Assembly: GCA_945860225.1 (NCBI GenBank)
Contig: CAMAPT010000005.1
Location: 1 to 64,000 of the forward strand
Direction: 5' to 3'
Length of the DNA: 64,000 nt
Source: Chitinophaga pinensis
GTDB lineage: Bacteria > Bacteroidota > Bacteroidia > B-17B0 > Aurantibacillaceae
A program made the position numbers and the translations under genes. This document shows positions 10,035-25,951 of the stretch, one piece after another. The stretch's first letter is position 1. The number at the start of each line of letters is the position of its first letter. A model generated the notes under the pieces. It was not told the DNA's origin. It was given only the letters and a program-made list of their open reading frames with translations, and did no database searches.

Positions 10035-11015
10035 TTAATTGCGGTATTGATACAACAACTTCACAATTCTCAAACTCTTTTGATTTGCTTCCCGGATAAT
10101 GTAGGACGTTAATTTTTTGTTCGAATCTGTCACATAGCTTATTTCTTTGAGCAATTCTCCATTTTTAAAATGCTTTTCAGTTAGCAAGCAGTCATTTTTA
10201 TCGTATTCATAAGTTCTTGACTGTTCGATATCACCATTTGAGTTGCTTTTATAGGCGGCACTGATTAATTGTCCTTTGGGGTTATAAGTAAAAGAGCTGT
10301 ATTGAGTAATCCAAGTTACTGTGTACTGCTCATTAATGTTGATGGGTTGTTTATCTTCATTTAAATTATAAATAATTTCTTTATAAGGCAGGCCTTCATC
10401 GTTGTGGCATATTTTTTTGTATTGGTTTTTACCAGTATAAATGTATTTGAAACTCTCTTCACTCAAGACAACTTGTGCCCCAAGTTTAAAATCTGATTTA
10501 TTTTCCGAAACATTAGTTTCCTTGCATCGTTTCTCTTTTTCTAGTTCCTCATCAGGCGAGTAATCATAATAATAGCTTTCATAAAATAATCCATCTTGAT
10601 GCCTTTTTAATTTTAGTTTATGAGATGAATTATAAAAATAAACTGTGGAAATTGTGTCATACACATATTCGGTTTTGGTATAAGAATGTCCGTTGCTGAT
10701 TTTTTTACGATGACGGTATATCGGTTCAGAGTGATATTCGCGTTGAATAACTTTACTGATAGAGGTATTGTAAAACCGATTTAGCAGACCCTGTGGGTTA
10801 AATTCGTAATACGTGAGTAAGCCTTTATCTTCAGCTACTTGTAAATCTTTTTTATCAATAATATCGTAAGTGATTGATTTGATGTTTTGACTTTTAATAA
10901 AGTCAGAATTAAAAGGCAACTGATTCGCAAAAGCAGATTCGGCTTTTGGAATGAGGGTTTGCGAAAAAAAAGGCAAAGCCAACATAATTAATCCAAAAAA
11001 AAGCAATACTCTCAC
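10035..11015 (-). CDS. Secreted YD-repeat-like protein of unknown function
   Basis: A 326-residue protein with an N-terminal signal peptide (MRVLLFFGLIMLALPFFSQ). The mature part is beta-rich and aromatic, with repeated short segments such as EFNPQGLLNRF, TYNPKGQLISA and YEYDKNDCLLTE. These resemble the Y-D-x-x-G-x-L pattern of YD/RHS-type or MORN-type strands, so an elongated beta structure is likely. There is no catalytic motif. It starts 27 bp after the end of the MBL-fold hydrolase gene and probably shares its transcript, but nothing visible connects their functions. Confidence 0.6.
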   Translation of the reverse strand: MRVLLFFGLIMLALPFFSQTLIPKAESAFANQLPFNSDFIKSQNIKSITYDIIDKKDLQVAEDKGLLTYYEFNPQGLLNRFYNTSISKVIQREYHSEPIYRHRKKISNGHSYTKTEYVYDTISTVYFYNSSHKLKLKRHQDGLFYESYYYDYSPDEELEKEKRCKETNVSENKSDFKLGAQVVLSEESFKYIYTGKNQYKKICHNDEGLPYKEIIYNLNEDKQPININEQYTVTWITQYSSFTYNPKGQLISAAYKSNSNGDIEQSRTYEYDKNDCLLTEKHFKNGELLKEISYVTDSNKKLTSYIIREANQKSLRIVKLLYQYRN

Positions 11016-11042
11016 GCGTATGGTTATTGATATGATGGCAGT

Positions 11043-11681
11043 TTATGTTAAAAACGGATTATTGATTCTTTCAAATCCAATGCTGGTAGGTGCGCCGTGC
11101 CCACTATATACCTTCATATCATCTCCAAGTGGAAATAATTTTTCTTTAATCGATTTTATTAAAGTAGCATGATTGCCCATAGGTAAATCTGTTCGGCCAA
11201 TGCTTCCGTAAAATAAAACATCTCCTCCGATAATGAATTTTTCTTGAGTGTTATAGAAAGAAATGCTTCCGGGTGAGTGACCAGGAGTATGCAATGTTTG
11301 TAATACCGAATCTCCGAATTGTATCACATCTCCTTCCTTAATAAAAGATATTGGCATCGGACTTTGTTCAGCCTGAATACCATACATGTTGGCGGTTGCC
11401 AAATGTTTTTCTATAAAAAATACATCTTCTTGATGTACTTCGGGTAGTAAACCATAGCTATCGAATACAAATTGATTACCATTGATGTGATCAACGTGAG
11501 CATGTGTAAGAATAAGACGTTTAGGAATTAATTGATGTTGTTTAATATATTCTTGTAATTGTTTGTGCTCTGAAGCATTGTTGTTTCCTGGATCTATTAA
11601 AATACATTCTTTGGTTTCGTCTGAAAGAATATAAGTGTTTTCTTGAAAAGGACCAAAGGTGAAATAGTGTATGTTTATCAT
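11043..11681 (-). CDS. MBL-fold metallo-hydrolase (glyoxalase II-like)
   Basis: A 212- to 214-residue cytoplasmic hydrolase of the metallo-beta-lactamase superfamily. Zinc-binding motif T-H-A-H-V-D-H is at about residues 61-67. HTPGHSPGS follows near residue 130, GGDVLF near 154 and SGHGAPT near 195, which together give the usual binuclear metal site. Glyoxalase II-like thioester hydrolysis is the usual guess for this subgroup, but the substrate is not determined. Relatives start at the MINI methionine, so the second ATG (11681) is preferred to 11687. It is the first gene of a probable two-gene minus-strand unit. Confidence 0.85.
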   Translation of the reverse strand: MINIHYFTFGPFQENTYILSDETKECILIDPGNNNASEHKQLQEYIKQHQLIPKRLILTHAHVDHINGNQFVFDSYGLLPEVHQEDVFFIEKHLATANMYGIQAEQSPMPISFIKEGDVIQFGDSVLQTLHTPGHSPGSISFYNTQEKFIIGGDVLFYGSIGRTDLPMGNHATLIKSIKEKLFPLGDDMKVYSGHGAPTSIGFERINNPFLT

Positions 11682-11730
11682 AGCCAATTATCTATTTATT
11701 TGCTAAATTTAAAATTTATTATTCAATTTA

Positions 11731-14700
11731 ATGAGACGGTTATTTATTTTATGGTGTCTTGTTGTATGCATTAAATCGGCTTATTCACAATTCTATTATG
11801 GTTCTCAGTTAGAATTTGGAAAGAATCGCATACAGTACCAATCATTTAATTGGACTTTTTTTGATTTTGATCGTTTTAGGATTTATTTGCACGAAGGAGG
11901 ACAGGAAATTGCGCGTTATGCAGCTATATCAGTAAACAGGCAATTGCCCATTATGGAAAAGCGTTTGGATTATCAAATTGAAGATAAACTAGATGTGATT
12001 GTTTATAATAATCAAAATGATTTTAAACAAAGTAATATTGGATTAGCAACTGAAGATAATGCCAATATTGGAGGGGTGACTAAAATTATAGGGGATAAAA
12101 TTTTTATTTATTTCACGGGTTCTCATGCCGATTTGGATAGGCAAATTAGAGCCGCTTTGGCTGAGTTAATCATTGAACAAATGATGTATGGTGGCAGAAC
12201 GAGAGATGTTGTAAAAAATTCTAATTTATTAACCTTGCCCGATTGGTTTAAGCAAGGATTAATTCGATACATGTCTGAAGGTTGGCACACAGACATAGAT
12301 AACCGCATTATGGATGGCTTGCAACATGATCGGTTTGTAAAAATGAATCAGTTAGTGGGGAAAGAGGCTGCGATGATTGGACATGCTTTATGGTATTATG
12401 TAGCCGAAGAATACGGAGAGGCGGTTATTCCAAATATACTTTATATGACTAAGGTGAGCCGTAATCCGAGCAATGCTTTCTTGTACGTTCTAGGTAATAC
12501 GGTCCAAAACCTGATGTATGAGTTGATGGATAAAATGTCTAAACGGTATTTTGATTTTAAAGATGCCTCCAGAAAAATTCCTGAAACACCGTCCGTTCTT
12601 AAAAAGCAAAAGAAAAATCGCCATTATTATCAACTAAAAATAAGTCCCGATGGCCAACGAATCAGTTACGCTACCAGCGAATTAGGTCAATATAAAGTGT
12701 GGCTACAAAACATTGGCGACAAAAAAAGTAAACGCTTACTTAAGTTACATCCAAAACTAGAACGCATAGAAGATAACACCTATCCGCTTATAGCATGGCA
12801 TCCAAATAATTCTGTGCTAGCGTTTATTTACGAGCAAAAAAATGTTTTGAAATTGCAAACATACGATATGGACACCAAGGAAAAGTTTGTTCGCAATGTC
12901 ACTGGATTTGAGAAAATTAATTCATATTCATTTTCTCATGATGGAAAACGACTCGTTATGAGTGCGGTTAAAAAAGGTAAGGGTCAATCAGATCTTTTTA
13001 TTTACACCTTAAATTCGGGTGGGGTAGAGCAAATTACCAATGATATTTGGGATGATAATCAGCCTGTTTTTGTAGATAATTCTAAAGGCATTGTTTTTCA
13101 TTCAAACCGAACTCATGATACCATTAAGGCCAATGAAGATGCTAAATTGTATCTTAAATTATCCAAAAACAACGATGTGTTTTTTTACAATGCCGTTACA
13201 AAATCAGAGGTATTATACCGAGTTACTAATACGCCCGACGTAGACGAAATCAATCCGCAACAGTATGAGCCGGGAGTTTTAGCTTTTTTGAGTGAGGAAA
13301 ACGGTATTTATAATCGATATGTTGGCACCTTAGATAGCGCCATTGCCTTTGTTGATACCACAGAGCATTACCGTTATTTCTATCATACAAAGCCTATAAC
13401 CAACTATGAAAAAAACATACAAGAATATCATATCAACGCAAAATTTAAAACCTATGCCGAAATTATTACGGAGAATTCAAAACAAAAATTGATAGTAGCC
13501 CCATTAGTTCCATTTGCAGAATTAAGCGATATCGAACTTTCTAATACTTGGTATAAAGGCACCCCTCATCCAAAAATTGCAGACCCCGAAAAAATAATCA
13601 TTACAAACCCTAGCAGACCCGAAGAAAACGCGCGTCCTGATGTGTTGAAATCAAACAACAAAACAACAGATGGAATTGATTTTGAAAATTATGACTTAAA
13701 TGGGGATCTGAAAAAAGAGCCATCCAAAGAAACCAAGCAGTCTGACTATGCGGCCAAGCGTTTGGCGAGTAAAAATTTGCAAGACTCTACTCGCAATAAG
13801 GCTGTAGAATTGCATTTTCCTATTCAGCAAAATTATTACATGAGCTTCAAAACCGATCAGGTGGTTTCTCAATTAGATAATTCTTTTTTAGCAACCAGTT
13901 ATCAACGTTTTGCTGGTGGTTCTAGCCCTGTTTATATTAATCCCGGTTTAAATGCCTTGTTTAAAATTGGGTTAAGTGATTTGTTTGAGGACAAACGCAT
14001 TGTAGCAGGTTTTCGTATAGCAGGTACCCTCGACAATGAGTATTTTTTAAGTTGGGAAGACCGAAGCGCTAAGATTGATAAACAATTGGTACTTCACCGA
14101 CAATCGTTGTTAAAAGTAAATGGCTATGCCGGATTATCTAAAATACAAACACACGATGCGCGGTATACCTGGAAAATACCTTTTAGCGAAGTATCTGCTG
14201 TAAAGTTTTCTGTATTGTACCGAAATGACAGAAGTGTGTTTGCGTCAGTGAGTGATGAGAGTTTACCGAAACCGAATTTGTATGATAATTATGGTGGCGC
14301 AAAGGCTGAATATATTTTTGATAATTCACGAAAAAAAGGCTTGAATTTATACAATGGTATACGAATGAAAGCCTGGGTGGAGTATTGGCGATTAATAAAA
14401 GAGGAACAGCATGATTTGGTAACATTAGGATTTGACGTACGTCACTATGCCAAAATACATAAGGATTTGATTTGGGCAAACCGTTTTGCAGGCGCTTCAT
14501 CTCTGGGTAAGGATCGTTTAATTTATTATTTAGGAGGAGTAGATAGTTGGTTAAATCCAAAATTTAATAACGACATCAACATTGTAAAACCGGAGCAATA
14601 TCAATTTCAAACCTTGGCTACCAATTTAAGAGGGTTTAATCAAAATATCCGAAACGGCAATAATTTTATGGTGCTAAATAGCGAAATTCGTTGGCCAATT

Positions 14701-15018
14701 TTCAAGTATTTAATTAATCAACCAATTCGTTCTGATTTTATTCAAAATTTCCAAATTGTTGGTTTTGGCGATTTGGGCATGGCTTGGTATGGTCAAGATC
14801 CATATAGCGAGGATAACGTATTAAATAAAAATGTGTATGTGGCCAATCCTGTAACGATGACTATTTACCATCAAAAAGAACCGATTGTGGGAGGCTATGG
14901 TTTTGGTCTAAGATCGAAGTTATTAGGCTATTTCATTCGCCTCGATTTTTCGTGGGGAGTAGATGATAAAACCATTCAAAAACGATTAACCTATTTGTCT
15001 CTCACAACAGATTTTTAA
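11731..15018 (+). CDS. Large outer-membrane protein: peptidase-MA-like region, TolB-type beta-propeller, beta-barrel
   Basis: A 1095-residue protein with a signal peptide (ending KSAYSQ). Residues about 40-270 look like a degenerate gluzincin/peptidase-MA-like domain: LPDWFKQGLIRYMSEGW is recognisable but no HEXXH is seen. Residues 290-560 hold WD40-like PD40 blades (ISPDGQRISYATSE, FSHDGKRLVMSA, VFHSNRTHD) as in TolB. After a low-complexity charged linker (about 590-690), residues 700-1095 are rich in alternating aromatic beta-strands and end in a terminal Phe. This is typical of an outer-membrane barrel of the BamA/surface-antigen type. The family is widespread in Bacteroidota and usually labelled TolB-like. 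The function is unknown. The TSUP gene begins 6 bp downstream. Confidence 0.7.
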   Translation: MRRLFILWCLVVCIKSAYSQFYYGSQLEFGKNRIQYQSFNWTFFDFDRFRIYLHEGGQEIARYAAISVNRQLPIMEKRLDYQIEDKLDVIVYNNQNDFKQSNIGLATEDNANIGGVTKIIGDKIFIYFTGSHADLDRQIRAALAELIIEQMMYGGRTRDVVKNSNLLTLPDWFKQGLIRYMSEGWHTDIDNRIMDGLQHDRFVKMNQLVGKEAAMIGHALWYYVAEEYGEAVIPNILYMTKVSRNPSNAFLYVLGNTVQNLMYELMDKMSKRYFDFKDASRKIPETPSVLKKQKKNRHYYQLKISPDGQRISYATSELGQYKVWLQNIGDKKSKRLLKLHPKLERIEDNTYPLIAWHPNNSVLAFIYEQKNVLKLQTYDMDTKEKFVRNVTGFEKINSYSFSHDGKRLVMSAVKKGKGQSDLFIYTLNSGGVEQITNDIWDDNQPVFVDNSKGIVFHSNRTHDTIKANEDAKLYLKLSKNNDVFFYNAVTKSEVLYRVTNTPDVDEINPQQYEPGVLAFLSEENGIYNRYVGTLDSAIAFVDTTEHYRYFYHTKPITNYEKNIQEYHINAKFKTYAEIITENSKQKLIVAPLVPFAELSDIELSNTWYKGTPHPKIADPEKIIITNPSRPEENARPDVLKSNNKTTDGIDFENYDLNGDLKKEPSKETKQSDYAAKRLASKNLQDSTRNKAVELHFPIQQNYYMSFKTDQVVSQLDNSFLATSYQRFAGGSSPVYINPGLNALFKIGLSDLFEDKRIVAGFRIAGTLDNEYFLSWEDRSAKIDKQLVLHRQSLLKVNGYAGLSKIQTHDARYTWKIPFSEVSAVKFSVLYRNDRSVFASVSDESLPKPNLYDNYGGAKAEYIFDNSRKKGLNLYNGIRMKAWVEYWRLIKEEQHDLVTLGFDVRHYAKIHKDLIWANRFAGASSLGKDRLIYYLGGVDSWLNPKFNNDINIVKPEQYQFQTLATNLRGFNQNIRNGNNFMVLNSEIRWPIFKYLINQPIRSDFIQNFQIVGFGDLGMAWYGQDPYSEDNVLNKNVYVANPVTMTIYHQKEPIVGGYGFGLRSKLLGYFIRLDFSWGVDDKTIQKRLTYLSLTTDF

Positions 15019-15024
15019 TTCACT

Positions 15025-15411
15025 ATGCAAGAACAAAAACCGATGACTTTACAAATGATTTTAATTTTATTGGCAGTGGGTTTGGTTGCCGGTTTTTTGA
15101 GCGGCATGGTTGGTATAGGTGGGGGTATTATTATCGTACCCGTTTTGGTGTATTTTTTAGGCTTTACCCAACATCAGGCACAAGGCACCACTTTATTTAT
15201 GTTTTTATTACCAATAGGTATACTAGGAGTCATGAATTATCACAAACAAGGGTATGTGGACTACAAAACGGCACTATTTATATGCTCCACATTTGTATTT
15301 GGAAGTTATTTCGGAAGTAAACTTTCTATTTCATTAGACCAAAAAACCATCAAACAAATCTTTGGAGCAATTATTATTGTGTTGGGACTTAAAATGTTAC
15401 TAGGAAAGTAA
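15025..15411 (+). CDS. Half-size TauE/SafE (TSUP) family membrane transporter
   Basis: A 128-residue inner-membrane protein with about four hydrophobic segments. The TSUP family signature is clear: a glycine-rich first helix (LSGMVGIGGGIIIVPVL) followed by QAQGTTLF. Full-length sulfite/sulfonate exporters of this family contain two such halves (about 250 residues), so this half-size form probably works as a homodimer. The substrate is unknown. It starts 6 bp after the large outer-membrane protein gene and is closed by a strong terminator, so the two are probably one transcript. Confidence 0.8.
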   Translation: MQEQKPMTLQMILILLAVGLVAGFLSGMVGIGGGIIIVPVLVYFLGFTQHQAQGTTLFMFLLPIGILGVMNYHKQGYVDYKTALFICSTFVFGSYFGSKLSISLDQKTIKQIFGAIIIVLGLKMLLGK

Positions 15412-15423
15412 CTTAATTAAGCA

Positions 15424-15452
15424 AAGAGGCTGTCCTTTTGAGACAGCCTCTT
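15424..15452. terminator. Bidirectional intrinsic terminator, GGCTGTC/GACAGCC type
   Basis: A perfect 11-bp stem (15424-15434 with 15442-15452) lies between convergent genes. Its core GGCTGTC/GACAGCC recurs in the terminators at 49911 and, less perfectly, at 26057. Confidence 0.8.
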
Positions 15453-15477
15453 AAAACGGATATTTGATATATTAATA

Positions 15478-16401
15478 TTATACCAAGGAAATATCAAATT
15501 GAACTAAATCTACAAATTCCTGAACTCTGTTTGCCACATCTTCTTGAGATAAGCCGATTAATCGTTCTGTGCCAAATTTTTCAACTGTAAAACTAGCCAT
15601 TGCTGAACCAAAAATAATAGCACGTTTCATGTTTTCGAAACTAACATCTTGGGTTTTAGCTAAGTATCCTATAAAACCACCTGCAAAACTATCGCCAGCA
15701 CCAGTTGGGTCAAATACTTCTTCTAAAGGTAAAGCCGGTGCAAAAAACACTTCATCTTTATTAAATAATAAAGCGCCATGTTCTCCTTTTTTGATCACTA
15801 AAGCTTTTGGTCCCATTGCCAAGATTTTTTTTGCGGCTTTTACCAAAGAATATTCTCCTGACAATTGTCGTGCTTCCGAATCATTAATGGTTAATACATC
15901 TACTCCTTTTAAGGTTTCTAACAAATCAGACATCGCAATATCCATCCAAAAGTTCATCGTATCTAATACAATTAGTTTCGGACGTTTAGATAATTGAGAC
16001 AATACGTTTTGTTGAACAGCAGGAGATAAGTTGCCTAACATTAAAAAGTCGCAATTCTTATAGCTTTCAGGTACTTTTGGGTCAAAATCGGCTAACACAT
16101 TTAATTGAGTATCTAAAGTATCGCGAGAGTTCATGTCGTTATGGTAACGTCCGCTCCAAAAGAAAGATTTTTCACCTTTTTTGATTTGTAAACCATCCAA
16201 ATTAACCCCTTGTGTTTTTAAAGTATCCAAAAAATCACCGGGAAAATCGTCGCCCACCACCGATACTAGGTCGATATGGTTAGTAAAATAAGAAGATGCT
16301 AAAGCAATGTAACTTGCCGCTCCTCCTACTATTTTATCTGTTTTGCCAAAAGGCGTTTCAATGGCATCGAATGCAACTGTACCTACAACTAAAAGACTCA
16401 T
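15478..16401 (-). CDS. PfkB/ribokinase-family sugar or nucleoside kinase
   Basis: A 307-residue cytoplasmic kinase. The family anchors are present: GGAASYIALASSYF near residue 26, a mid-protein LTINDSEARQL segment near 170, and the signature DPTGAGDSFAGG at 231-242 with catalytic base D237 and the anion hole. It transfers phosphate from ATP to a sugar or nucleoside hydroxyl. The exact substrate cannot be read, though relatives in Bacteroidota are often annotated simply as sugar kinase. The gene is transcribed alone, convergent with the TSUP gene through a shared terminator and divergent from tRNA-Asn. Confidence 0.88.
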   Translation of the reverse strand: MSLLVVGTVAFDAIETPFGKTDKIVGGAASYIALASSYFTNHIDLVSVVGDDFPGDFLDTLKTQGVNLDGLQIKKGEKSFFWSGRYHNDMNSRDTLDTQLNVLADFDPKVPESYKNCDFLMLGNLSPAVQQNVLSQLSKRPKLIVLDTMNFWMDIAMSDLLETLKGVDVLTINDSEARQLSGEYSLVKAAKKILAMGPKALVIKKGEHGALLFNKDEVFFAPALPLEEVFDPTGAGDSFAGGFIGYLAKTQDVSFENMKRAIIFGSAMASFTVEKFGTERLIGLSQEDVANRVQEFVDLVQFDISLV

Positions 16402-16556: not shown

Positions 16557-16630
16557 TCCTTCTTAGCTCAGCTGGTTAGAGCACATGACTGTTAATCATG
16601 GGGTCCCTGGTTCGAGCCCAGGAGAGGGAG
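16557..16630 (+). tRNA. tRNA-Asn (anticodon GTT)
   Basis: A full cloverleaf can be drawn. The acceptor is TCCTTCT with AGAGGGA (one T-G wobble). The D stem is GCTC/GAGC. The anticodon stem CATGA/TCATG carries C-T-GTT-A-A with GTT at 16591-16593. The T stem is CCTGG/CCAGG around TTCGAGC. The discriminator is G; the 3' CCA is not encoded. Its 3' portion is duplicated about 390 bp downstream, flanking a GIY-YIG gene. Confidence 0.95.
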
Positions 16631-16684
16631 CAATAAAAGCCTTTGAAACGCCTAGTTTTAAAGGCTTTTTTGTTGTATGGCTTT
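16575..16684 (+). repeat. Direct repeat copy A: tRNA-Asn 3' part, terminator and GIY-YIG start codon
   Basis: This segment runs from GTTAGAG in the tRNA D arm through the rest of the tRNA, the terminator hairpin and the first codons (ATGGCTTT) of the GIY-YIG gene. It recurs, diverged and with a replaced variable region, at 16963-17080. The two copies bracket the GIY-YIG reading frame exactly. Confidence 0.8.
16635..16671 (+). terminator. Intrinsic terminator after tRNA-Asn
   Basis: A stem of about 15 bp (16635-16649 with 16655-16669, one wobble) has a 5-base loop and a six-T run. It is duplicated at 17031. Confidence 0.75.
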
Positions 16685-16967
16685 TTATATTTACATCTTA
16701 TATTCTCCTGTTGCTAACAAATATTATATTGGGTTTTCAGAAAATCCTGAAAAACGCTTATTAGAACATAATAATCCCATTCATTCTAAATTCACGTCCA
16801 AATATATTCCTTGGGAGTTAAAAACATTTTTCTTGGCCTCTAATAATAAGGGAGACGTAATGAAAATTGAACGTTATATTAAAAACATGAAGAGTAGAAA
16901 GTACACTGAAAATTTAATTTCAGACATAGCTGAGCAGGCCCGAATTTGTCGATTATTTAAAAGTTAG
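16677..16967 (+). CDS. GIY-YIG family endonuclease, small tRNA-linked homing-like element
   Basis: A 96-residue single-domain GIY-YIG nuclease (UPF0213/COG2827-like). It has Y-I-Y-I-L-Y-S at residues 4-10, YYIGFS at 16-21, the conserved Arg in EKRLLEHN near residue 27 and the metal-binding Glu in KIERYI near 64. The family cuts DNA and is found both as stand-alone genes and as homing endonucleases. Here the start codon lies a few bases past the tRNA-Asn terminator, inside direct repeat copy A. The stop codon TAG lies inside copy B, in sequence derived from the tRNA D arm. This placement suggests a selfish element that inserts at a tRNA gene while regenerating it. Expression probably depends on read-through of the tRNA terminator or an unseen promoter. 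Confidence 0.85.
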   Translation: MAFYIYILYSPVANKYYIGFSENPEKRLLEHNNPIHSKFTSKYIPWELKTFFLASNNKGDVMKIERYIKNMKSRKYTENLISDIAEQARICRLFKS

Positions 16968-17080
16968 AGTATTTGACTGTTAATCATTCCCGATGGTTCG
17001 GGATGGTTCGAGCCCAGGAGAGGAAGCAATAAAAGCCTTTGAAACACCTAGTTTTAAAGGCTTTTTTGTTTTATGGCTTT
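16963..17080 (+). repeat. Direct repeat copy B: degenerate tRNA-Asn 3' part plus terminator
   Basis: This copy repeats 16575-16684 with substitutions. It keeps TGACTGTTAATCAT with the GTT anticodon, GGTTCGAGCCCAGGAGAG, the terminator hairpin and ATGGCTTT. It lacks the tRNA 5' half. The variable region plus the 5' T stem is replaced by a 17-base segment containing TCCCGATGGTTCGGGA, an imperfect palindrome. It cannot fold as a functional tRNA because the acceptor 5' strand, the D arm and a paired T stem are missing. Confidence 0.8.
17031..17067 (+). terminator. Duplicate intrinsic terminator after GIY-YIG gene
   Basis: The stem AAAAGCCTTT/AAAGGCTTTT with inner AAAC/GTTT pairing and a six-T run is a near-identical copy of the tRNA-Asn terminator at 16635. 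Confidence 0.7.
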
Positions 17081-17409
17081 CCTCCCTCAAAGGGCTTTGA
17101 GTGGGATTTTTAGCCAAAAAAGTACTCATTTTCTGCAAAAACTCTGCGCATGATTTTCTATTAAATTGATAAATTAATCCATTGATTTTAAAAAGGCATT
17201 TCCAAAAAAACAGTATCTTCTACTAGAAACTTGAAATACACGGGAAATTGCTTAATCGTGATTTGATATTATTATCTCAATTATACTCAGTTAAATACTT
17301 TAAGACACATGCACGACACATTTTTCTTTAGTAAACATGTTAAAATGCTAACTGTAGTATGTGGCGCATATTGCATACTATAAATAGCTTTACTAGGTTG
17401 ATATTTAAC
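17081..17409. other. Intergenic region upstream of the XRE gene
   Basis: About 330 bp with no supported gene. It opens with a small hairpin (CTCAAA at 17086-17091 with TTTGAG at 17096-17101). The remainder is AT-rich. A 7-bp inverted repeat at 17355-17380 is the only regulatory-looking element. It probably contains the promoter of the XRE/TPR unit. Confidence 0.5.
17355..17380. promoter_or_regulatory. Candidate operator (inverted repeat) upstream of the XRE gene
   Basis: TAGTATG (17355-17361) and CATACTA (17374-17380) form a perfect 7-bp inverted repeat with a 12-bp spacer, 29 bp before the XRE start codon. Position and symmetry suit an autoregulatory site for the dimeric XRE protein; no second copy was seen before hsdM. 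Confidence 0.35.
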
Positions 17410-17634
17410 ATGAGTAAGAGAAAAGTTTTAGTGCAATTTGGGGAAAAAGTCAGAGAGTTAAGAAAGGAGAAAGGTCTTTCGCAAGAAGAACTTTCTTATA
17501 AATCAGACTTACATAGAACGTACATAGGTATGATTGAAAGAGCTGAAAAAAACATTACGCTTGTTAATATTGAAAAAATTGCAAAGGGTCTAAATGTTGA
17601 ATTAAAAGATTTTTTTAATTCAACTAAAAAATAA
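17410..17634 (+). CDS. XRE-family HTH regulator (R-M controller/C-protein-like)
   Basis: A 74-residue single-domain regulator starting MSKRKVLVQFGEKVRELRKE. I prefer the ATG at 17410 to an upstream in-frame codon at 17359, because the latter lies inside the candidate operator and adds an unrelated N-terminus. The helix-turn-helix is SQEELSYKSDLHRTYIGMIE, followed by NITLVNIEKIAKGL, a layout shared with C proteins of restriction-modification systems and with phage-type repressors. It is 13 bp upstream of the TPR/HEXXH gene, so they form one operon. It may control that gene, itself, and perhaps hsdMSR 2.3 kb downstream. The regulatory targets are inferred. Confidence 0.85.
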   Translation: MSKRKVLVQFGEKVRELRKEKGLSQEELSYKSDLHRTYIGMIERAEKNITLVNIEKIAKGLNVELKDFFNSTKK

Positions 17635-17647
17635 TACTGATAAATAA

Positions 17648-19621
17648 ATGCAAATCACACATAAAATAAACGAATTTCTTTTTACAATTTTCCCTGAATT
17701 AAAGGGGGGGGGTAACGAATTAATAATCAGTGCTTTAGAAAAGTATTACACGTATGGGCCTTTCAAGCCTACTGTAACAATTCATAAAGATTGGGTGAAT
17801 ATTGAAATTGATAATCAATCAATAATATCCCAAGATACAGAATACAGGAAAACTGTATCACTTTGCGAAAAAGGTAAATATTCTGAAGCAAAACCAATCT
17901 TAAAAAAACTTATTGAAAAAAATCCAACCAATTCGGAATACTACCGAATTATGGGGCAAATATTATCTGATGAAGGAGACCAAGAAGAAGCGATAAACTG
18001 TTTAATTGACGCTTTGCGTTGGGACTCTAAAAATGGTTGGGCATTGCTTATGATGGGAAACATCTTTGCAAAATTCAAAGATGATGTTCCTACTGCAATG
18101 AAATATTATGATCAAGCATTAATTGCAAATCCGAATGACAATATCACGATAAATAATATTGGGGCTAATTTAATGCAGCAAGGTAAACTTGAAGAAGCAA
18201 AAAAATATTTTCGGGAAGCCATTAAAATAAATGATAAATATCCAAATACTCATTTTGCTTTAGGAATGATTGCTGAAACTGAAGATGACTCGCAGTCTGC
18301 TTTTTACAGCACCATTCAAGCAATTAAGTTAAATAAGAATAAAGATGTTCTTTATCAAAATTCAGTAAGGCAAGCATTTGAAATTGCTAAGAAAATAATT
18401 GCAACTAATACAGGTAAAAAGATTTTTCGAGAATACAGACACAAACTTGAATTTGAAGGTGACAGACGAATTGATATTGTGCAAGACGAAGAAATACCGA
18501 CCGCTGCAAAATTTGAGTTTGCAGAGAATTATGAAAGAGAAGTTCATACTGTAAGATATAAACCAAGCTATCCGGCAGTTGAACATCTTATAATGCATGA
18601 ATTAGTTCATTTAGATTTTGTAATTCAGGCGAGAAAGGACGATTTAAATCAGTTATTCATTTCAAATCAAAGTCACAAAACGCAATTTATTGGAGGGCTT
18701 GAGCCAACAATTAAGAAATTCAATAAAATGGGAATTTCTGAAAAATCAATTGCAGACTATTGCTCAAACTTGTTTGAAGGGATGAATCGTCAAATTTTCA
18801 ATACTCCAATAGACGTATTCATTGAACAATTTTTATTTACCGAATTCCCTGATCTAAGGGCGTATCAATTTGTATCACTTTACACAATGTTACAGGAAGG
18901 TTTAAAAGCAGTAACTGATCAAAAAATTATTGAGCTATCGCCTAACGACATCATTTCAAAAAGTAAGGTTTACAATATTGTGAATGCAATACAATTTAAA
19001 GAATTGTTTGGTTTGGATTTTATTAAGGATTTTAATGCAACAACTGTTGAACTTAAAATGGCAACAGATTTTTATGAAGAATACCTTCAATACAAAGATG
19101 ATAAAGAACCGGCAGAAGAATATGAATTGGTATTGCATTGGGCTGAAGATTTAAAACTGGATAAAAACTTTGAATTAGTTAGTGAGATAGAATTCAGAAC
19201 CAAGCGAACTAACATTGATAACCTATTATCTTCAATAGAAAAAGATCCTTTTGATTTGGAATCCAAAGATCCTTACAAGGAACGAGAGATGGATAAATTC
19301 CAAAAATCAGAAGAGGCAAATGGAATCAACATGGAGGTAGTAATGTTTATGGTTGATGCTTTACAATTTTTTGAAGGAAAACCAATTAATGAAATAAAGA
19401 AAATAGCAGTTGAAATTGCTATGCAGGGCACTCAAGGTTATCGTCCAGACAAAGACAATTACAGAATCAGTTCAATCAAAGATAAAATATTTTCCGGCTA
19501 TCACATTTTAGCATATTACTATGTCAGTTGGGCTTTGGCAATACCTGAAATGCTGAAGCAGTTGCAATTACCGTACGATGAAGAATATAAAATGGCTTTT
19601 AAAATGCATAAATCAAACTAG
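17648..19621 (+). CDS. TPR-repeat protein with HEXXH zinc-peptidase motif; possible phase-variable gene
   Basis: A 657-residue cytoplasmic protein without a signal peptide. Residues about 45-240 form at least four TPR-type helical repeats (for example AKPILKKLIEKNPTNSEYYR and AMKYYDQALIANPNDN). Residues about 255-420 contain LIMHELVHLDFV with an H-E-L-V-H zinc motif at 317-321, reminiscent of ImmA/IrrE- or M48-like gluzincins. The C-terminal 240 residues are helical and charged, with no recognised domain. It is preceded by an XRE regulator (13 bp), as XRE/ImmA-type pairs often are, and followed by a MazG-like remnant and hsdMSR. A run of nine G (17704-17712) at codons 19-22 could switch the gene by slippage. 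Function is unknown; a stress or anti-phage role is inferred from context. Confidence 0.75.
   Translation: MQITHKINEFLFTIFPELKGGGNELIISALEKYYTYGPFKPTVTIHKDWVNIEIDNQSIISQDTEYRKTVSLCEKGKYSEAKPILKKLIEKNPTNSEYYRIMGQILSDEGDQEEAINCLIDALRWDSKNGWALLMMGNIFAKFKDDVPTAMKYYDQALIANPNDNITINNIGANLMQQGKLEEAKKYFREAIKINDKYPNTHFALGMIAETEDDSQSAFYSTIQAIKLNKNKDVLYQNSVRQAFEIAKKIIATNTGKKIFREYRHKLEFEGDRRIDIVQDEEIPTAAKFEFAENYEREVHTVRYKPSYPAVEHLIMHELVHLDFVIQARKDDLNQLFISNQSHKTQFIGGLEPTIKKFNKMGISEKSIADYCSNLFEGMNRQIFNTPIDVFIEQFLFTEFPDLRAYQFVSLYTMLQEGLKAVTDQKIIELSPNDIISKSKVYNIVNAIQFKELFGLDFIKDFNATTVELKMATDFYEEYLQYKDDKEPAEEYELVLHWAEDLKLDKNFELVSEIEFRTKRTNIDNLLSSIEKDPFDLESKDPYKEREMDKFQKSEEANGINMEVVMFMVDALQFFEGKPINEIKKIAVEIAMQGTQGYRPDKDNYRISSIKDKIFSGYHILAYYYVSWALAIPEMLKQLQLPYDEEYKMAFKMHKSN
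17704..17712 (+). repeat. G9 homopolymer tract inside the 5' coding region
   Basis: Nine consecutive G bases lie in codons 19-22 (Lys-Gly-Gly-Gly) of the TPR/HEXXH gene. With ten G the frame reads GGG then TAA at once. With eight G it reads GTA ACG AAT TAA. Either one-base change therefore truncates the protein to about 25 residues or fewer. Such a tract stands out in AT-rich DNA and is the classic form of a slipped-strand contingency switch. Confidence 0.7.
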
Positions 19622-19623
19622 TA

Positions 19624-19791
19624 ATGAAAGAAAATGATGAAATCATAGAATTACTTCTAAAATTCAGAAATGAAAGAGATTGGGAGTAATTCCACAATTT
19701 AAAAGATTTAGCCCTTGCAATTAATGGTGAGGTAGGTGAATTACTTGAATTTTTTCCCGACTTGTTTAGCTGTATTTATTTAATATTATAG
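19624..19791 (+). pseudogene. Broken MazG-like nucleotide pyrophosphohydrolase gene
   Basis: Starting 2 bp after the TPR gene, the frame reads MKENDEIIELLLKFRNERDWE, stop (TAA at 19687-19689), then FHNLKDLALAINGEVGELLE. This matches the N-terminus of short MazG-like NTP pyrophosphohydrolases (R-D-W-E-Q-F-H-x-P-K-D-L-A-x-A, E-x-x-E-L-L-E). The stop sits exactly where the family has Gln, so a single CAA to TAA change would explain it. Similarity ends after the E-x-x-E-L-L-E metal-binding helix and the frame closes at 19791, so the 3' half is also lost. It was probably once part of the XRE/TPR operon. Confidence 0.7.
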
Positions 19792-19896: not shown

Positions 19897-21372
19897 ATGA
19901 TAACAGGAGAATTAAAATCACAAGTAGATAAAATTTGGGAGTCTTTTTGGACAGGAGGCATCTCAAACCCATTAACCGTAATTGAGCAATTTACCTATTT
20001 GCTATTTATTAGAAGGCTTGATGAAATCCAGTTGTTGGAAGAGAAGAAAGCAAGCATGATTAAGAAGCCTATTGCAAATCCTATTTTCACAGCTAAGCAG
20101 CAAGAACTAAGATGGAGCTCTTTTAAAAATAAAGACCCTGAAACCATGTATTCCCTTTTTACAAAAGTAAAAGAAGGTAGCCTTAATATTTTTGAGCACA
20201 TGAAACAAACAGGCTCAACAGCAGGTGTGTTTGCTCAGTATATGAAAGATGCCAGCTTTGAAATTAAAAAGCCAAGGCTGTTAGATCAGGTTGTTCAGAT
20301 GATTGATAAAATCAAAATGGAAGACAGAGATACCAAAGGTGATTTGTATGAATACATGTTGTCTAAAATTGCAACAGCAGGCACCAATGGTCAGTTCAGG
20401 TCTCCAAGACACATCATTAAAATGATGGTAGATTTGGTAGAACCTAAGCAAGATGATAAAATGTGTGACCCCTCATCAGGCACTTGTGGATTTTTGGTAG
20501 CTGCCGGAGAGTATATGCATGATAAACACCCTGATTGGTTTAATGACAAAAAATTTAGAGAGCATTACAACAACCACATGTTTTCAGGTGTTGAGTTTGA
20601 TAACACCATGTTAAGAATAGGTGCTATGAACCTGCAACTACATGGTATTGAAAACCCAAATCTTATTGGTAAGGATGCCTTAAGTGAAGCTAATGGTGAT
20701 ATTAGAGACGAATACACCCTCATCTTAGCTAATCCTCCATTTAAAGGAAGCTTAGATTATGATGCAGTTGAAACCTCTTTACTTAAAATAGTAGAAACTA
20801 AAAAAACAGAATTATTGTTTTTAGCACTCATGTTAAGGATGCTTAAAACAGGAGGTAGATGTGCGGTGATTATACCTGATGGAGTGTTGTTTGGTAGCAG
20901 TAATGCACACAAGCAAATAAGAAAAGAAATTATTGAAAACAATAAATTAGAAGCCATCATCTCTATGCCAAGTGGTGTGTTTAAGCCATATGCAGGGGTT
21001 AGCACAGCTATTATGATATTTACTAAAACAGGCAATGGTGGTACAGATAATGTGTGGTTTTATGATATGCAAGCTGATGGTTATAGCTTAGATGATAAAC
21101 GCGCTGAGGTAAAAGATAATGACATAGCAGATATAATTAAAAGATACCATAACCGCAAAGCAGAGATTAAAAGAAAGAGAACTGATAAAAGTTTTATGGT
21201 ACCCTTTGCAGAAATTAAAGCTAATGACTGGGACTTAAGCATAAACCGTTATAAAGAAGTAGTACATACAGAAGTGGTTTATTCTTCTCCTGCTAACATT
21301 ATTAAAGAGATAAAAGGCTTAGACCAAGATAGAGCTAAAGCATTACAAACCTTAGAGAAATTATTGAAATGA
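19897..21372 (+). CDS. hsdM: Type I restriction-modification system, DNA methyltransferase subunit (N6-adenine)
   Basis: A 491-residue modification subunit. It has an HsdM N-terminal helical domain (about 5-130) followed by the N6-adenine methyltransferase domain. The SAM-binding motif DPSSGTCGF starts at residue 191 and the catalytic motif NPPF at residue 279. It methylates adenine in the target defined by HsdS and is needed for both modification and restriction complexes. The gene overlaps hsdS by 4 bp (ATGA), a sign of translational coupling. Arginine codons are almost all AGA/AGG, unlike the CGN-containing neighbours outside the island, which suggests acquisition by transfer. It starts about 105 bp after the MazG-like remnant. 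Confidence 0.95.
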   Translation: MITGELKSQVDKIWESFWTGGISNPLTVIEQFTYLLFIRRLDEIQLLEEKKASMIKKPIANPIFTAKQQELRWSSFKNKDPETMYSLFTKVKEGSLNIFEHMKQTGSTAGVFAQYMKDASFEIKKPRLLDQVVQMIDKIKMEDRDTKGDLYEYMLSKIATAGTNGQFRSPRHIIKMMVDLVEPKQDDKMCDPSSGTCGFLVAAGEYMHDKHPDWFNDKKFREHYNNHMFSGVEFDNTMLRIGAMNLQLHGIENPNLIGKDALSEANGDIRDEYTLILANPPFKGSLDYDAVETSLLKIVETKKTELLFLALMLRMLKTGGRCAVIIPDGVLFGSSNAHKQIRKEIIENNKLEAIISMPSGVFKPYAGVSTAIMIFTKTGNGGTDNVWFYDMQADGYSLDDKRAEVKDNDIADIIKRYHNRKAEIKRKRTDKSFMVPFAEIKANDWDLSINRYKEVVHTEVVYSSPANIIKEIKGLDQDRAKALQTLEKLLK

Positions 21373-22517
21373 GCTATACCGCATATAGACTAGATGATAT
21401 CTGTGATGTTATAACCTGTGGTGTTGCTAAGAGACCAGATTATGTTGAAAGTGGAGTGCCATTTCTTTCATCCTTAAATGTAAAAGAAAACAAGTTCATT
21501 TTAAAAACTTATAAGTTTATCTCACAAGCTGATCATTTAAAATTGACAAAATATGCTAAGCCTGAAAAGGGAGACATTCTTTATACAAGGGTCGGTTCAT
21601 TTGGAGAAGCAGCTGTTATTGATTTAGACTTTGAGTTTTCTGTTTTTGTAAGTTTAACCTTAATAAAGCCTAAAAGAAGCCTAGTAAATAGTATATATTT
21701 AATGTGGTATCTTAATTCTCCTAAGGTTAGAGAGTTTGCAAAAAATAATACAAGTGGGATTGGTGTTCAAAATCTCAATGTAGGTGTTGTTAGGGAGTAC
21801 AAAATTTTATTACCACTACTTGCAACCCAACAAAAAATAGCAGCCATATTAGATGCAGCAGATGAGTTAAGGCAAAAAGATAAAGCCCTTGTTGCAAAAT
21901 ATGATGAGCTTACACAAGCCCTGTTTTTAGATATGTTTGGAGCTGGCATTGGTGAAAATATAGAGCTTGGTAAAATAATAAAACTTATTGGTGGAGGTAC
22001 TCCAAGTAAGATGATTGAAGAATATTGGAAAGGGACAATACCTTGGGCAAGTGTAAAAGATTTAAAGTCTGATATTCTAAAATCCACAATTGATCATATT
22101 ACTGAGGAAGCAGTTAAAAATAGTGCAACAAATATTATTCCTGCTGGTAGTTTAATCATAGCAACAAGAATGGCAGTTGGTAAGGCTGTAATTTGTGAAC
22201 AAGACACTGCTATAAATCAAGATTTAAAAGCAGTTAAAATCATTGGAGATGCTAATGTGAAATTTCTACAGCATTTTTTTAAATCTAAAGAGACATATTT
22301 TGACTCAATATCATCTGGCGCTACAGTTAAAGGAATAAAAATTGAGCATATTACAAAATTAAAAGTGCCTATTCCTCCAATCAAACTCCAAAACCAATTT
22401 GCAGAAAGAGTAAAGGCAATAGAAGAACAAAAAAATATAGCACAAGCAAGTGCACTAAAATCAGAAGAATTGTTTAACAGCCTATTACAAAAGGCATTTA
22501 ATGGAGAGTTAGTATGA
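21369..22517 (+). CDS. hsdS: Type I restriction-modification system, specificity subunit
   Basis: A 382-residue subunit with the usual two-fold layout. Target recognition domain 1 covers about residues 1-150. A conserved helical spacer follows, with PLLATQQKIAAILDAADELRQKDKALVAKY. Target recognition domain 2 (about 195-345) includes the typical GGGTPSK and IPWASVKDLK segments. A second helical arm ends AFNGEL. The two domains recognise the halves of a bipartite DNA site, which cannot be read from sequence. The gene is intact, single and lacks visible inverted repeats or homopolymer switches, so no shufflon-type variation is evident. It overlaps hsdM and hsdR by 4 bp each. Confidence 0.95.
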   Translation: MSYTAYRLDDICDVITCGVAKRPDYVESGVPFLSSLNVKENKFILKTYKFISQADHLKLTKYAKPEKGDILYTRVGSFGEAAVIDLDFEFSVFVSLTLIKPKRSLVNSIYLMWYLNSPKVREFAKNNTSGIGVQNLNVGVVREYKILLPLLATQQKIAAILDAADELRQKDKALVAKYDELTQALFLDMFGAGIGENIELGKIIKLIGGGTPSKMIEEYWKGTIPWASVKDLKSDILKSTIDHITEEAVKNSATNIIPAGSLIIATRMAVGKAVICEQDTAINQDLKAVKIIGDANVKFLQHFFKSKETYFDSISSGATVKGIKIEHITKLKVPIPPIKLQNQFAERVKAIEEQKNIAQASALKSEELFNSLLQKAFNGELV

Positions 22518-25500
22518 GTAACTTTAAATTTCTTCAAAAAGAGTGGACCTCCCTTTACAGCAAAATTATTATTGCTGAAGAAAGAGCATACACAGAACCT
22601 GTTTACACAGCTAGTACTTGCAGGTTAGTGCTTGAGGAAAGCATGCACCTATTATACTCTATTGAGCATTTTGATAAACCCTTTAATACAGAACTCGTAA
22701 ATTTAATGAGTGAGGAATCTGTAAAAAGAGCAGTACCTACTCAGCTATTAGATGGGTTACACATTGTTAGAAAAACAGGTAACAATGCTGCACATTTTGG
22801 TAACAGAATTACAAGTAAAGAAGCTGTTATTAGCCTTCGCTATATTTATGCATACCTAAAATGGTTTGCACTTAATTATAGTAAAACAGCACTTGAGCTA
22901 CCACAACTATTTGATGAAGCCTTAATACCGGCAGCAGGAGATAAACACAGGCAGTTAAAAGAGTTACAAGCAGAACAAGAAAAAGCACAACAAGCCTTAC
23001 TGCTGCAAATACAAAAACTCAATGAAGAAAAAGATAAGCTCCTAGAAAAAGCAAAAGAAAGTGAAGCTACTTTATCAGAGTATAAAGCAAAAGAAAGTCA
23101 AGCAAAAGAAATACTTAAAGCACAAAAACAGTCAAGGTTAAAACCTATCAGTACAGAGTTTACAGAAGCTCAAACAAGGCAGCATTTAATTGACATTGAT
23201 TTAAAATCTGTAGGATGGTATTTATTGCATAATGGTAAAGACACAGAATACCCAGTTACAGGAATGCCTGTTACAGCAGATAACCCAAAAGGAAATGGTT
23301 TTGTAGATTATGTGTTGTGGGATGATAATGGTAAACCGTTAGCATTAATTGAAGCTAAAAGAACAAGCAAAGATGTTGAGGTAGGAAAACACCAGGCAGT
23401 TTTATATGCCAATTGCCTTGAGCAAATGCATGGGCAAAGACCTGTTATATTTTATACCAATGGATATGAAACCAAACTATGGGATGATGCATTTTACAGT
23501 GCTCCAAGAAGAGTGTATGGATTTTATACTAAGGATGAATTGCAGTGGCTTATACAAAAAAGAACCACTATACAAGATATTAGAAAAGCAACCATAAACA
23601 CAGGTATTGCAGGCAGACCTTATCAGTTAGAAGCTATACAACGCGTAGCAGAAACTTTTGTAACAGATAATGCTAAAGGTATATGTGGTAACAAAAGAAG
23701 AGCCTTATTAGTAATGGCAACAGGCTCAGGTAAAACCAGAACTGCAGCTGCCATGGTAGATGTACTCATAAAAAATAATTGGGTAAAAAGAGTCTTGTTT
23801 TTAGCAGATAGAAATGCCTTAGTAAGACAAGCTAAAAATAATTTCTCAGAATATTTACCTGAACTATCTTCTATAGATTTAACTGAAAACAAAGAAAATG
23901 AAACCACTAGGTTAGTGTTTAGCACCTATCCTAGCATGATGAATAAAATAGATAATGCTAAAAATGGAGATGAACGCTTTTATGGTGTAGGGCATTTTGA
24001 TTTAATTATTATAGATGAAGCACATAGGTCAATCTATAACAGATATAAAGCCATCTTTGATTATTTTGATGCCTGTATAGTAGGTTTAACAGCTACTCCT
24101 AAAGATGGAATAGATCATAATACCTTTGAACTGTTTGGCTGTAGTAATGAAGACCCCACTTTCCTATATGAACTAAACCAAGCAGTACCCACCTATTTAT
24201 CTCCGTACAAAAACATTGATATAAAATCTAAATTTTTAAGAGAAGGCATAAAGTATAAGGATTTATCTCCTACAGATAAGGCTAAGTATGAAGACACATT
24301 TATAGATAGAACTACTGGGCTGTTTCCTGAAGAAATAAGATCTAATGCCATGAATAAATGGCTGTTTAATGAAGATACAGTCAATAAAGTATTAGATGCC
24401 TTAATGGAAAAAGGCTTAAAGATTGAAGGAGGGGATAAAATCGGTAGGACAATCATATTTGCAGTCAATCAAAACCATGCTAAGTTTATTGTAGACTGTT
24501 TTACCAAAAGATACCCTGAGCAACCTGCTGGCTTTATAGCTATGATACATAATGAAGTATCACACGCGCAAAGTTTAATAGATGCATTTTGTGATCAGTA
24601 TAAAGAAAATAATCCTCAGATAGCAGTATCAGTAGATATGATGGATACAGGCATTGATGCTCCTAGAGTATTAAACTTAGTGTTTTTTAAAGTAGTAAGG
24701 TCTTATGCTAAGTTTTGGCAGATGATTGGTAGAGGCACCAGATTATGCCCTGATGTATTCGGACCAAATCACCCAAAGGATTACTTTTTAATATTTGATG
24801 TATGTGGTAACTTCAATTTTTTTGAAGCAGCAAAAGAAAAAGATGACACTAAAATTGCTAAGCCCATTACTCAACAATTATTTGAATCAAGATTGCATTT
24901 AAGCAGGCTGTTAATAGAAGATGGAGGGACAGAAGAGGTAGAATTAGCCAATACCCTGAGAGATACATTACATTCCTCTATAGCTCAACTAGACAAAAAT
25001 CGCTTTCAAGTGGGTATGCATTTAAAGCATGTTGATGAGTTTAGTAAAAGAGCTAGATGGAACACTATTGACTCACATGACATTCATCTTATTGAAGAAC
25101 ATTTATCAGAATTACCTGTACCGGAAACAATCAATGAACTAGCTAGAAGATTTGACTTAATGATGGTAAAACTCCAAACAGCCACACTCATGCTCAATTA
25201 TAGCAAAAAGAAGTATGAGAATAACCTGATGGAAATTGCAGAAGGCTTAAGTACAAAATATACCATAGCAGATATTTTGAGGTCAAAACCCTTAATTGAA
25301 TCTCTTAAAGAACCTGAATTTTATAAAGCCCTATCACAAAAAAAATTAGAGGAAATTAGGGAAGAGATAAGGGAACTTGTACAATATTTAGATAGCTCTA
25401 GTAAACCTGCCTTCTACACCAATCTATTAGATACAGATTTTACTATTACAGTAAGTGAGCCTGACATGAGTGTAAATTATGGCACTTTATATCGCAAGAG

Positions 25501-25951
25501 AGTAGAGAGTTATATTAGAGAGAATAAACATAATGTAGTCATATCAAAGCTTTCTACTAACTTACCAATTACAGCCCAAGAGTTGAGCCTATTAGAGAAA
25601 GTTTTATTTGATGGCACAGACAGAGGCAGTAGAGAAGATTTTGTGAAAGAGTTTGGAGAAGCCCCATTAGGTGTTTTTATCAGAAGCATTATTGGACTTG
25701 ATATTAAAGCAGCCCAAGAAGCATTTGCATACTTTTTAACAGCAGGAAAATTAAGAGCTGATCAAATGACGTTCATTCAAAATATAATCAGCTACCTAAC
25801 TAAAAATGGCACTATAGAGCCAAGTATGTTATTTGAACCTCCCTTTACGGATATTAATGATCAAGGATTGATGGGAGTGTTTGATGATGGTGCATCTCAT
25901 AAGATTATCAATATCATAGAGCAAATAAATGATAATGCAATTGGGGCTTAG
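22514..25951 (+). CDS. hsdR: Type I restriction endonuclease, translocating subunit
   Basis: A 1145-residue motor and nuclease subunit. Residues 1-120 resemble a DUF4145-type helical domain, followed by a Lys/Glu/Gln coiled coil (about 140-205). The PD-(D/E)xK nuclease core shows D265 and E280-A-K282 in VDYVLWDDNGKPLALIEAK. The SF2 translocase follows, with Walker A GSGKT at 404-408, DEAH at 501-504, a GLTATP motif and IGRGTRLCP (motif VI). The C-terminus is helical and likely binds HsdM. It cleaves unmodified DNA after ATP-driven translocation. All catalytic residues are present, so the operon looks functional. It ends the island; no tRNA-Asn repeat is visible at this side. Confidence 0.95.
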   Translation: MSNFKFLQKEWTSLYSKIIIAEERAYTEPVYTASTCRLVLEESMHLLYSIEHFDKPFNTELVNLMSEESVKRAVPTQLLDGLHIVRKTGNNAAHFGNRITSKEAVISLRYIYAYLKWFALNYSKTALELPQLFDEALIPAAGDKHRQLKELQAEQEKAQQALLLQIQKLNEEKDKLLEKAKESEATLSEYKAKESQAKEILKAQKQSRLKPISTEFTEAQTRQHLIDIDLKSVGWYLLHNGKDTEYPVTGMPVTADNPKGNGFVDYVLWDDNGKPLALIEAKRTSKDVEVGKHQAVLYANCLEQMHGQRPVIFYTNGYETKLWDDAFYSAPRRVYGFYTKDELQWLIQKRTTIQDIRKATINTGIAGRPYQLEAIQRVAETFVTDNAKGICGNKRRALLVMATGSGKTRTAAAMVDVLIKNNWVKRVLFLADRNALVRQAKNNFSEYLPELSSIDLTENKENETTRLVFSTYPSMMNKIDNAKNGDERFYGVGHFDLIIIDEAHRSIYNRYKAIFDYFDACIVGLTATPKDGIDHNTFELFGCSNEDPTFLYELNQAVPTYLSPYKNIDIKSKFLREGIKYKDLSPTDKAKYEDTFIDRTTGLFPEEIRSNAMNKWLFNEDTVNKVLDALMEKGLKIEGGDKIGRTIIFAVNQNHAKFIVDCFTKRYPEQPAGFIAMIHNEVSHAQSLIDAFCDQYKENNPQIAVSVDMMDTGIDAPRVLNLVFFKVVRSYAKFWQMIGRGTRLCPDVFGPNHPKDYFLIFDVCGNFNFFEAAKEKDDTKIAKPITQQLFESRLHLSRLLIEDGGTEEVELANTLRDTLHSSIAQLDKNRFQVGMHLKHVDEFSKRARWNTIDSHDIHLIEEHLSELPVPETINELARRFDLMMVKLQTATLMLNYSKKKYENNLMEIAEGLSTKYTIADILRSKPLIESLKEPEFYKALSQKKLEEIREEIRELVQYLDSSSKPAFYTNLLDTDFTITVSEPDMSVNYGTLYRKRVESYIRENKHNVVISKLSTNLPITAQELSLLEKVLFDGTDRGSREDFVKEFGEAPLGVFIRSIIGLDIKAAQEAFAYFLTAGKLRADQMTFIQNIISYLTKNGTIEPSMLFEPPFTDINDQGLMGVFDDGASHKIINIIEQINDNAIGA

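Follow-up and report, generated by a model that had tools for sequence, protein, structure and literature searches.

The window, i.e., the whole stretch of DNA that was analysed (64,000 nucleotides), harbors a gene for a 657-aa protein that combines a short N-terminal alpha/beta region, a TPR array (about residues 60-250) and a C-terminal HEXXH domain (Table 1). A small regulator gene of the XRE/C-protein-like HTH type (HTH_3, E=1.7e-14; PADLOC Control_protein, 5e-25, and capH, 3.5e-10) ends 13 nt before it; the start of this regulator was taken at the ATG in the 17411-17413 region, and the listed open reading frame starts at 17359. The TPR/HEXXH gene is followed by a decayed MazG-like gene, whose homology to intact copies ends near 19755, and by the three genes of a Type I restriction-modification system. 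Further upstream, the 3′ end of a tRNA-Asn gene is duplicated 396 bp downstream: this end and the sequence after it recur as a 77-nt direct repeat (96% identical), and a small GIY-YIG open reading frame lies between the tRNA gene and its repeat. The repeat is plausibly an integration scar at the edge of a defence island.

Table 1. Features around the TPR/HEXXH gene, in window coordinates
Feature	Position	Strand	Remarks
tRNA-Asn	16557-16631
GIY-YIG ORF	16677-16967
Direct repeat of tRNA-Asn 3′ end	17004-17080
XRE/C-protein-like HTH regulator	17412-17634	+
TPR/HEXXH gene	17648-19621	+	657 aa
G9 tract	17704-17712	+	codons 19-22 of the TPR/HEXXH gene
Stops 3′ of the tract, both alternative frames	17713-17725	+	+1: immediate TAA; -1: GTA ACG AAT TAA
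Decayed MazG-like gene	19624-19755	+	TAA for CAA at codon 22 (19687-19689)
hsdM, Type I methyltransferase	19897-21372	+
hsdS, Type I specificity subunit	21369-22517	+
hsdR, Type I restriction subunit	22514-25951	+

In the C-terminal region of the TPR/HEXXH protein, the H317-E318-x-x-H321 motif and E393 are invariant across 29 sequences. This pattern suggests a gluzincin-type metallopeptidase with putative peptidase activity. The region has no match among the peptidase families of Pfam, PADLOC and NCBIfam, including M78, and a fold search with the predicted C-terminal domain alone gave no PDB match below E=0.9; with the full-length model, TPR proteins are among the best matches shown. Against the PADLOC families there is no full-length match, and weak partial hits fall in the TPR region only (PDC-M16B, PDC-M71B). 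No relatives of the gene were found in viral contigs, and a plasmid search gave two full-length matches of about 40% identity. Searches of open-licence full-text papers gave no account of the gene family, of its MazG association or of a Bacteroidota switch based on a G tract; as evidence of novelty this is weak.

Among 60 related genomes, the TPR/HEXXH gene has one close match and hsdM has none. Both genes thus look horizontally acquired, and a separate acquisition of the Type I system is probable, since hsdM is without a close match in these relatives.

The G tract in the window and among homologues

The tract comprises the third base of codon 19 (AAG), codons 20 and 21 (GGG GGG) and the first two bases of codon 22 (GGT). 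The initial annotation had read a run of nine G's at this site and claimed that one G more or less leaves a clean OFF state. Re-reading of the sequence confirms the run, and recomputed products agree with the rest of the claim: G9 yields the full 657 aa, G10 meets a stop after 22 codons and G8 after 24, and changes of two G's end likewise (G7 after 21 codons, G11 after 25). As in contingency loci, the tract is a pure simple repeat within the 5′ part of a coding region. The same annotation regarded long G runs as rare in AT-rich DNA. G9 is the sole run of eight or more G's in the 2.9-Mb source genome, but 5 of 100 dinucleotide-shuffled versions of the window also contain a G9, and runs of eight or more G's are present in nearly all of 40 related genomes (one to tens in each, more than 1000 in one). 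Taken alone, the window tract is therefore only mildly unusual.

A protein search of genome contigs gave 56 loci encoding relatives, 52 of them with a readable 5′ end. An uninterrupted run occurs at the same codon, just after an FPEL motif, in 28 of these 52, and its length is G7, G8, G9, G10, G11 or G13, where a constant G9 in all relatives had been named beforehand as the result that would speak against a switch. Across the 721 kb of homologous loci there are 32 runs of at least seven G's or C's, of which 28 are this tract and four lie elsewhere; because 28 of 32 occupy one codon position, the recurrence exceeds chance. The tract is absent in the other 24 homologues, and no run of seven or more G's stands at the tract site in 21 further loci with more distant homologues, so the gene family evidently works without it. 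Three tractless alleles (L006, L008, L060) are nested in the tract clade, with up to 89% DNA identity to tract alleles, and tract presence requires 8 changes on the tree (quick maximum-likelihood). Because of these nested alleles and the tractless distant loci, the tract is best described as a feature of one subfamily that was lost repeatedly or gained more than once. The distant tractless homologues are found in many of the sampled genomes of one genus (g90, family f39; L084, L085, L087-L098 and others), far oftener than elsewhere. Two single loci may be recorded here as well. In L047, a second G9 run (91-99) lies in frame in the 3′ part of another gene. The L020 contig begins (1-10) a few bases past the expected tract position, and mixed lengths could have broken the assembly there.

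The run could be an accident of GGG codons that encode a functional glycine stretch, constant in each lineage. Every in-frame allele does encode a Gly-rich stretch after FPEL, and the single genome examined has one length. However, 13 alleles are out of frame, which largely refutes this explanation, and relatives up to 89% identical in DNA have no run, so that the glycines appear dispensable; in the tractless relatives they are replaced by unrelated residues such as KKGD, and not by the mixed Gly codons that the initial annotation had set as a refuting result. Moreover, although GGG is the rarest Gly codon in the rest of the tract genes (15%), none of the tracts is interrupted, and the longest G run elsewhere in these genes is 5. 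A functional glycine stretch was rejected on the close tractless relatives and is extremely improbable; it seems to be the G run itself, rather than the glycines, that is kept. In an AlphaFold2 model, the tract-encoded residues 19-22 form a loop between two helices, and because of this predicted position length changes should be tolerated there.

Frame states of the tract alleles

For the 28 tract loci and the window, 16 alleles are in frame (ON: the window, L003, L004, L005, L007, L015, L016, L023, L024, L027, L032, L039, L044, L047, L054, L055) and 13 are out of frame (OFF: L009, L010, L011, L012, L013, L017, L018, L022, L029, L048, L051, L052, L058), a scoring that assumes the ATG used as start and, for L029, relies on the frame offset. 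Out-of-frame lengths lead to a stop within 21-30 codons in every tract allele recomputed (all but L029), with the exception of one shift of L044, which runs 48-49 codons. The in-frame share exceeds one third (16/29, one-sided p=0.013, with related alleles treated as independent), an excess that fits selection for function.

These alleles are consensus assemblies, mostly metagenome-assembled genomes with one genome per species, and some homopolymer lengths may be wrong. Homopolymers being error-prone, the OFF alleles might be sequencing or assembly errors in a gene that is always ON. This is very unlikely: many different projects contributed the 13 OFF alleles, among which is that of an isolate, Pedobacter puniceum HX-22-1 (L009, G10), and lengths differ even among ON alleles (G7, G8, G9, G11, G13), so that real length change has happened. 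State also differs between close relatives. L048 (G8, OFF) and L055 (G9, ON) are 93% identical with near-identical flanks and are one G apart, and L005 (G13, ON) and L052 (G9, OFF) are 97.5% identical. On the tree, tract alleles must have changed between ON and OFF at least 11 times, and neither state clusters more than it does with shuffled labels; this scatter supports reversible, high-frequency switching within a population only indirectly.

Where an OFF gene is fully covered, 633-638 codons beyond the tract remain open, and the alternative frames contain 40-81 stops in the three genes counted. Most ON/OFF pairs have a dN/dS of 0.06-0.12; the value is 0.22 for L048/L055 and 0.50 for L005/L052, a short and very close pair with few changes. 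OFF alleles thus appear, for the most part, not to be dead genes, their otherwise intact frame being under purifying selection. A second frameshift occurs in one allele of each state, near residue 125 in L058 (OFF) and near residue 513 in L044 (ON).

Purifying selection on OFF genes would also be explained by steady low expression. RNA polymerase can slip on long G runs, and transcriptional slippage or a programmed frameshift could let OFF DNA make some full-length protein, the tract then tuning dose. At a programmed site one would expect a single length, whereas lengths here run from G7 to G13 with ON and OFF scattered on the tree, and the alternative frames stop immediately. Dose tuning is consequently unlikely as the sole account, and it may coexist with phase variation at the DNA level.

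Length variation at a conserved site, and ON and OFF frames with the rest of the gene mostly intact, are further properties of contingency loci, and the window G9 is very probably the slippage site of such a locus. The ON/OFF switch by slipped-strand mispairing that the initial annotation had offered as a candidate thus gains support from the G7-G13 variation and from the 16 ON and 13 OFF alleles. Slipped-strand phase variation of the gene family, mostly in Bacteroidota, is supported by these comparisons; for the source organism's own population, we infer switching. Replication slippage would add or remove G's, and only every third length would give the full protein: in frame, the 657-aa TPR/HEXXH protein would be made (ON), and one or two G's off, translation would stop after 21-25 codons (OFF).

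Operons headed by the TPR/HEXXH gene

The gene had been described as lying beside a defence operon. Defence genes do adjoin it, but the gene itself heads such operons. In 28 loci it is closely followed, usually as the next gene, by a MazG-like gene (typically 109 aa; Pfam MazG-like, E=9e-20). MazG-like enzymes count among the domains for which DefensePredictor predicts a role in defence (PMC13092281). A Schlafen-group-3 helicase is present in 22 loci, in most of which it follows MazG and has a GIY-YIG or other N-terminal domain, and MazG with the Schlafen-type helicase is the commonest partner of the family; the alternative, an McrB-like ATPase with a DUF2357/PD-(D/E)XK protein, follows in 6-7 loci. 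In L033 (10368-16128), the TPR and MazG genes are followed in the same gene row by two Schlafen-group-3 helicase genes (10368-12572 and 14254-16128).

Other contexts are diverse. BREX genes are neighbours in three loci (BrxB/BrxC in L035, BrxC in L014, and BrxL/PglZ convergent with the gene in L019), and the gene heads or adjoins Type III systems (L045, L021, L017) and Type I genes (L041, L022, L044). It occurs with an HKD-SNF2 helicase and a IIG/PglX-like methylase in L030, and with a DrmMI-like methylase and an SspC-like protein in L038. Of the 52 loci, 11 have an XRE regulator no more than 41 nt before the gene, and these regulators belong to three different types; L018 and L058 carry a close homologue of the window's regulator immediately before the TPR/HEXXH gene. 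In relatives, the genes of the core operon mostly lie tightly together, spaced by -14 to +4. The TPR/HEXXH gene is therefore a recurrent head gene of many defence operons, a strong pattern rather than a tested statistic.

An ancestral association with hsdMSR was considered for the window and rejected, given the lack of a close hsdM in the 60 relatives and the commonest partner named above. The window module might instead be a relic, a TPR gene without a working partner in which switching has no effect. Its MazG-like gene has a nonsense codon and has lost its 3′ end, no Schlafen-type or McrBC-like gene follows the TPR gene, and the Type I system next to it is the probable separate acquisition; since the usual MazG partner is a pseudogene, the window copy may be partly decayed or drifting. 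Against this, the 657-aa frame is intact and in the ON state, and family members occur in operons without a recognisable MazG gene, some with Type I genes after them (L041, L022). A relic is accordingly conceivable at this locus, though rather unlikely.

The gene heads a modular operon: an XRE regulator, the TPR/HEXXH protein, a MazG-like enzyme and, last, a nuclease or restriction system of one of several kinds that can replace each other. Under the phase-variation reading, switching of this head gene would place operon activity under bet-hedging. The direct route would be through the protein itself, as a required sensor or regulatory protease of the operon: the TPR region may sense infection or damage, and the protein may activate the operon by proteolysis. 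By analogy with XRE-metallopeptidase pairs, such a sensor or regulatory protease is the favoured role, taken as a working hypothesis. Polarity probably adds to the effect, because downstream genes overlap or nearly abut the head gene in relatives. As the gene heads a compact operon with nuclease or restriction neighbours, OFF probably silences or de-regulates defence. The tract, its differing lengths in relatives, the ON and OFF frames, the upkeep of OFF genes and the operon contexts are read from sequence, whereas reversibility within a population, the protein's biochemical role and an effect on the window Type I system are all things we infer.

More generally, one transferable phase-variable TPR/HEXXH gene could be a control module of general use, inserted ahead of defence systems that are unrelated to each other (Schlafen-type helicase-nucleases, McrBC-like systems, Type I and III restriction-modification, and BREX), giving heritable ON/OFF bet-hedging; this broad proposal is tentative, a possibility that on balance we hold as doubtful. 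Defence systems are costly to the cells that carry them; random switching of a head gene that they share would account for the coexistence of protected and unprotected cells in one population. Phase variation in Bacteroidota is best known from DNA inversions. The alleles described here are evidence for a homopolymer switch that is conserved across many genera of this phylum and attached to immunity genes, and they draw attention to a TPR/HEXXH protein family, as yet uncharacterised, whose genes repeatedly lead defence operons of very different kinds. The ON and OFF relatives, some of them isolates, form a list for direct testing.

Comparison with known systems

CapH/CapP and ImmR/ImmA-type pairs consist of an XRE repressor and a HEXXH metallopeptidase that control defence or mobile elements. 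The window shows a similar arrangement, in which a small XRE regulator immediately precedes a HEXXH protein and the two lead a defence operon. In contrast to these pairs, its HEXXH domain matches neither a peptidase family, ImmA/IrrE (M78) among them, nor a PDB fold at the threshold given above, and an XRE gene is directly upstream in only 11 of 52 loci and the window. The XRE-metallopeptidase analogy thus fails on sequence and fold, and it serves as a working hypothesis.

In phase-variable Type I and III restriction-modification genes and in phasevarions, slipped-strand mispairing in simple repeats turns expression on and off (PMC12707154). The repeat lies in the mod or hsd genes of those systems, whereas the G run of the window lies in the gene upstream of hsdMSR. 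The only run of seven or more G's in the window is the tract itself, with none in hsdM, hsdS or hsdR; as far as G runs are concerned, the methyltransferase and specificity genes are thus without the repeat that characterizes phasevarions, and an assignment of the tract to the Type I genes was rejected.

The closest precedent is pglX of Streptomyces coelicolor, part of Pgl/BREX-family phage defence, which has 8 G's in the wild type and 7 in inactive derivatives (PMC4365076). This tract switches phage resistance on and off, at reported frequencies of 1e-2 to 1e-4 (PMC4365076). In both cases a G tract lies inside a defence gene. However, the pglX tract is in the methyltransferase gene of a single actinobacterial system, whereas the window tract lies in a TPR/HEXXH head gene that several unrelated defence systems have in common, for the most part in Bacteroidota. 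That a defence gene can vary in phase through a homopolymer is already established, both by pglX and by the Type I and III systems; the novelty lies in the gene family, in the range of defence systems that it accompanies and in the mostly Bacteroidota setting.
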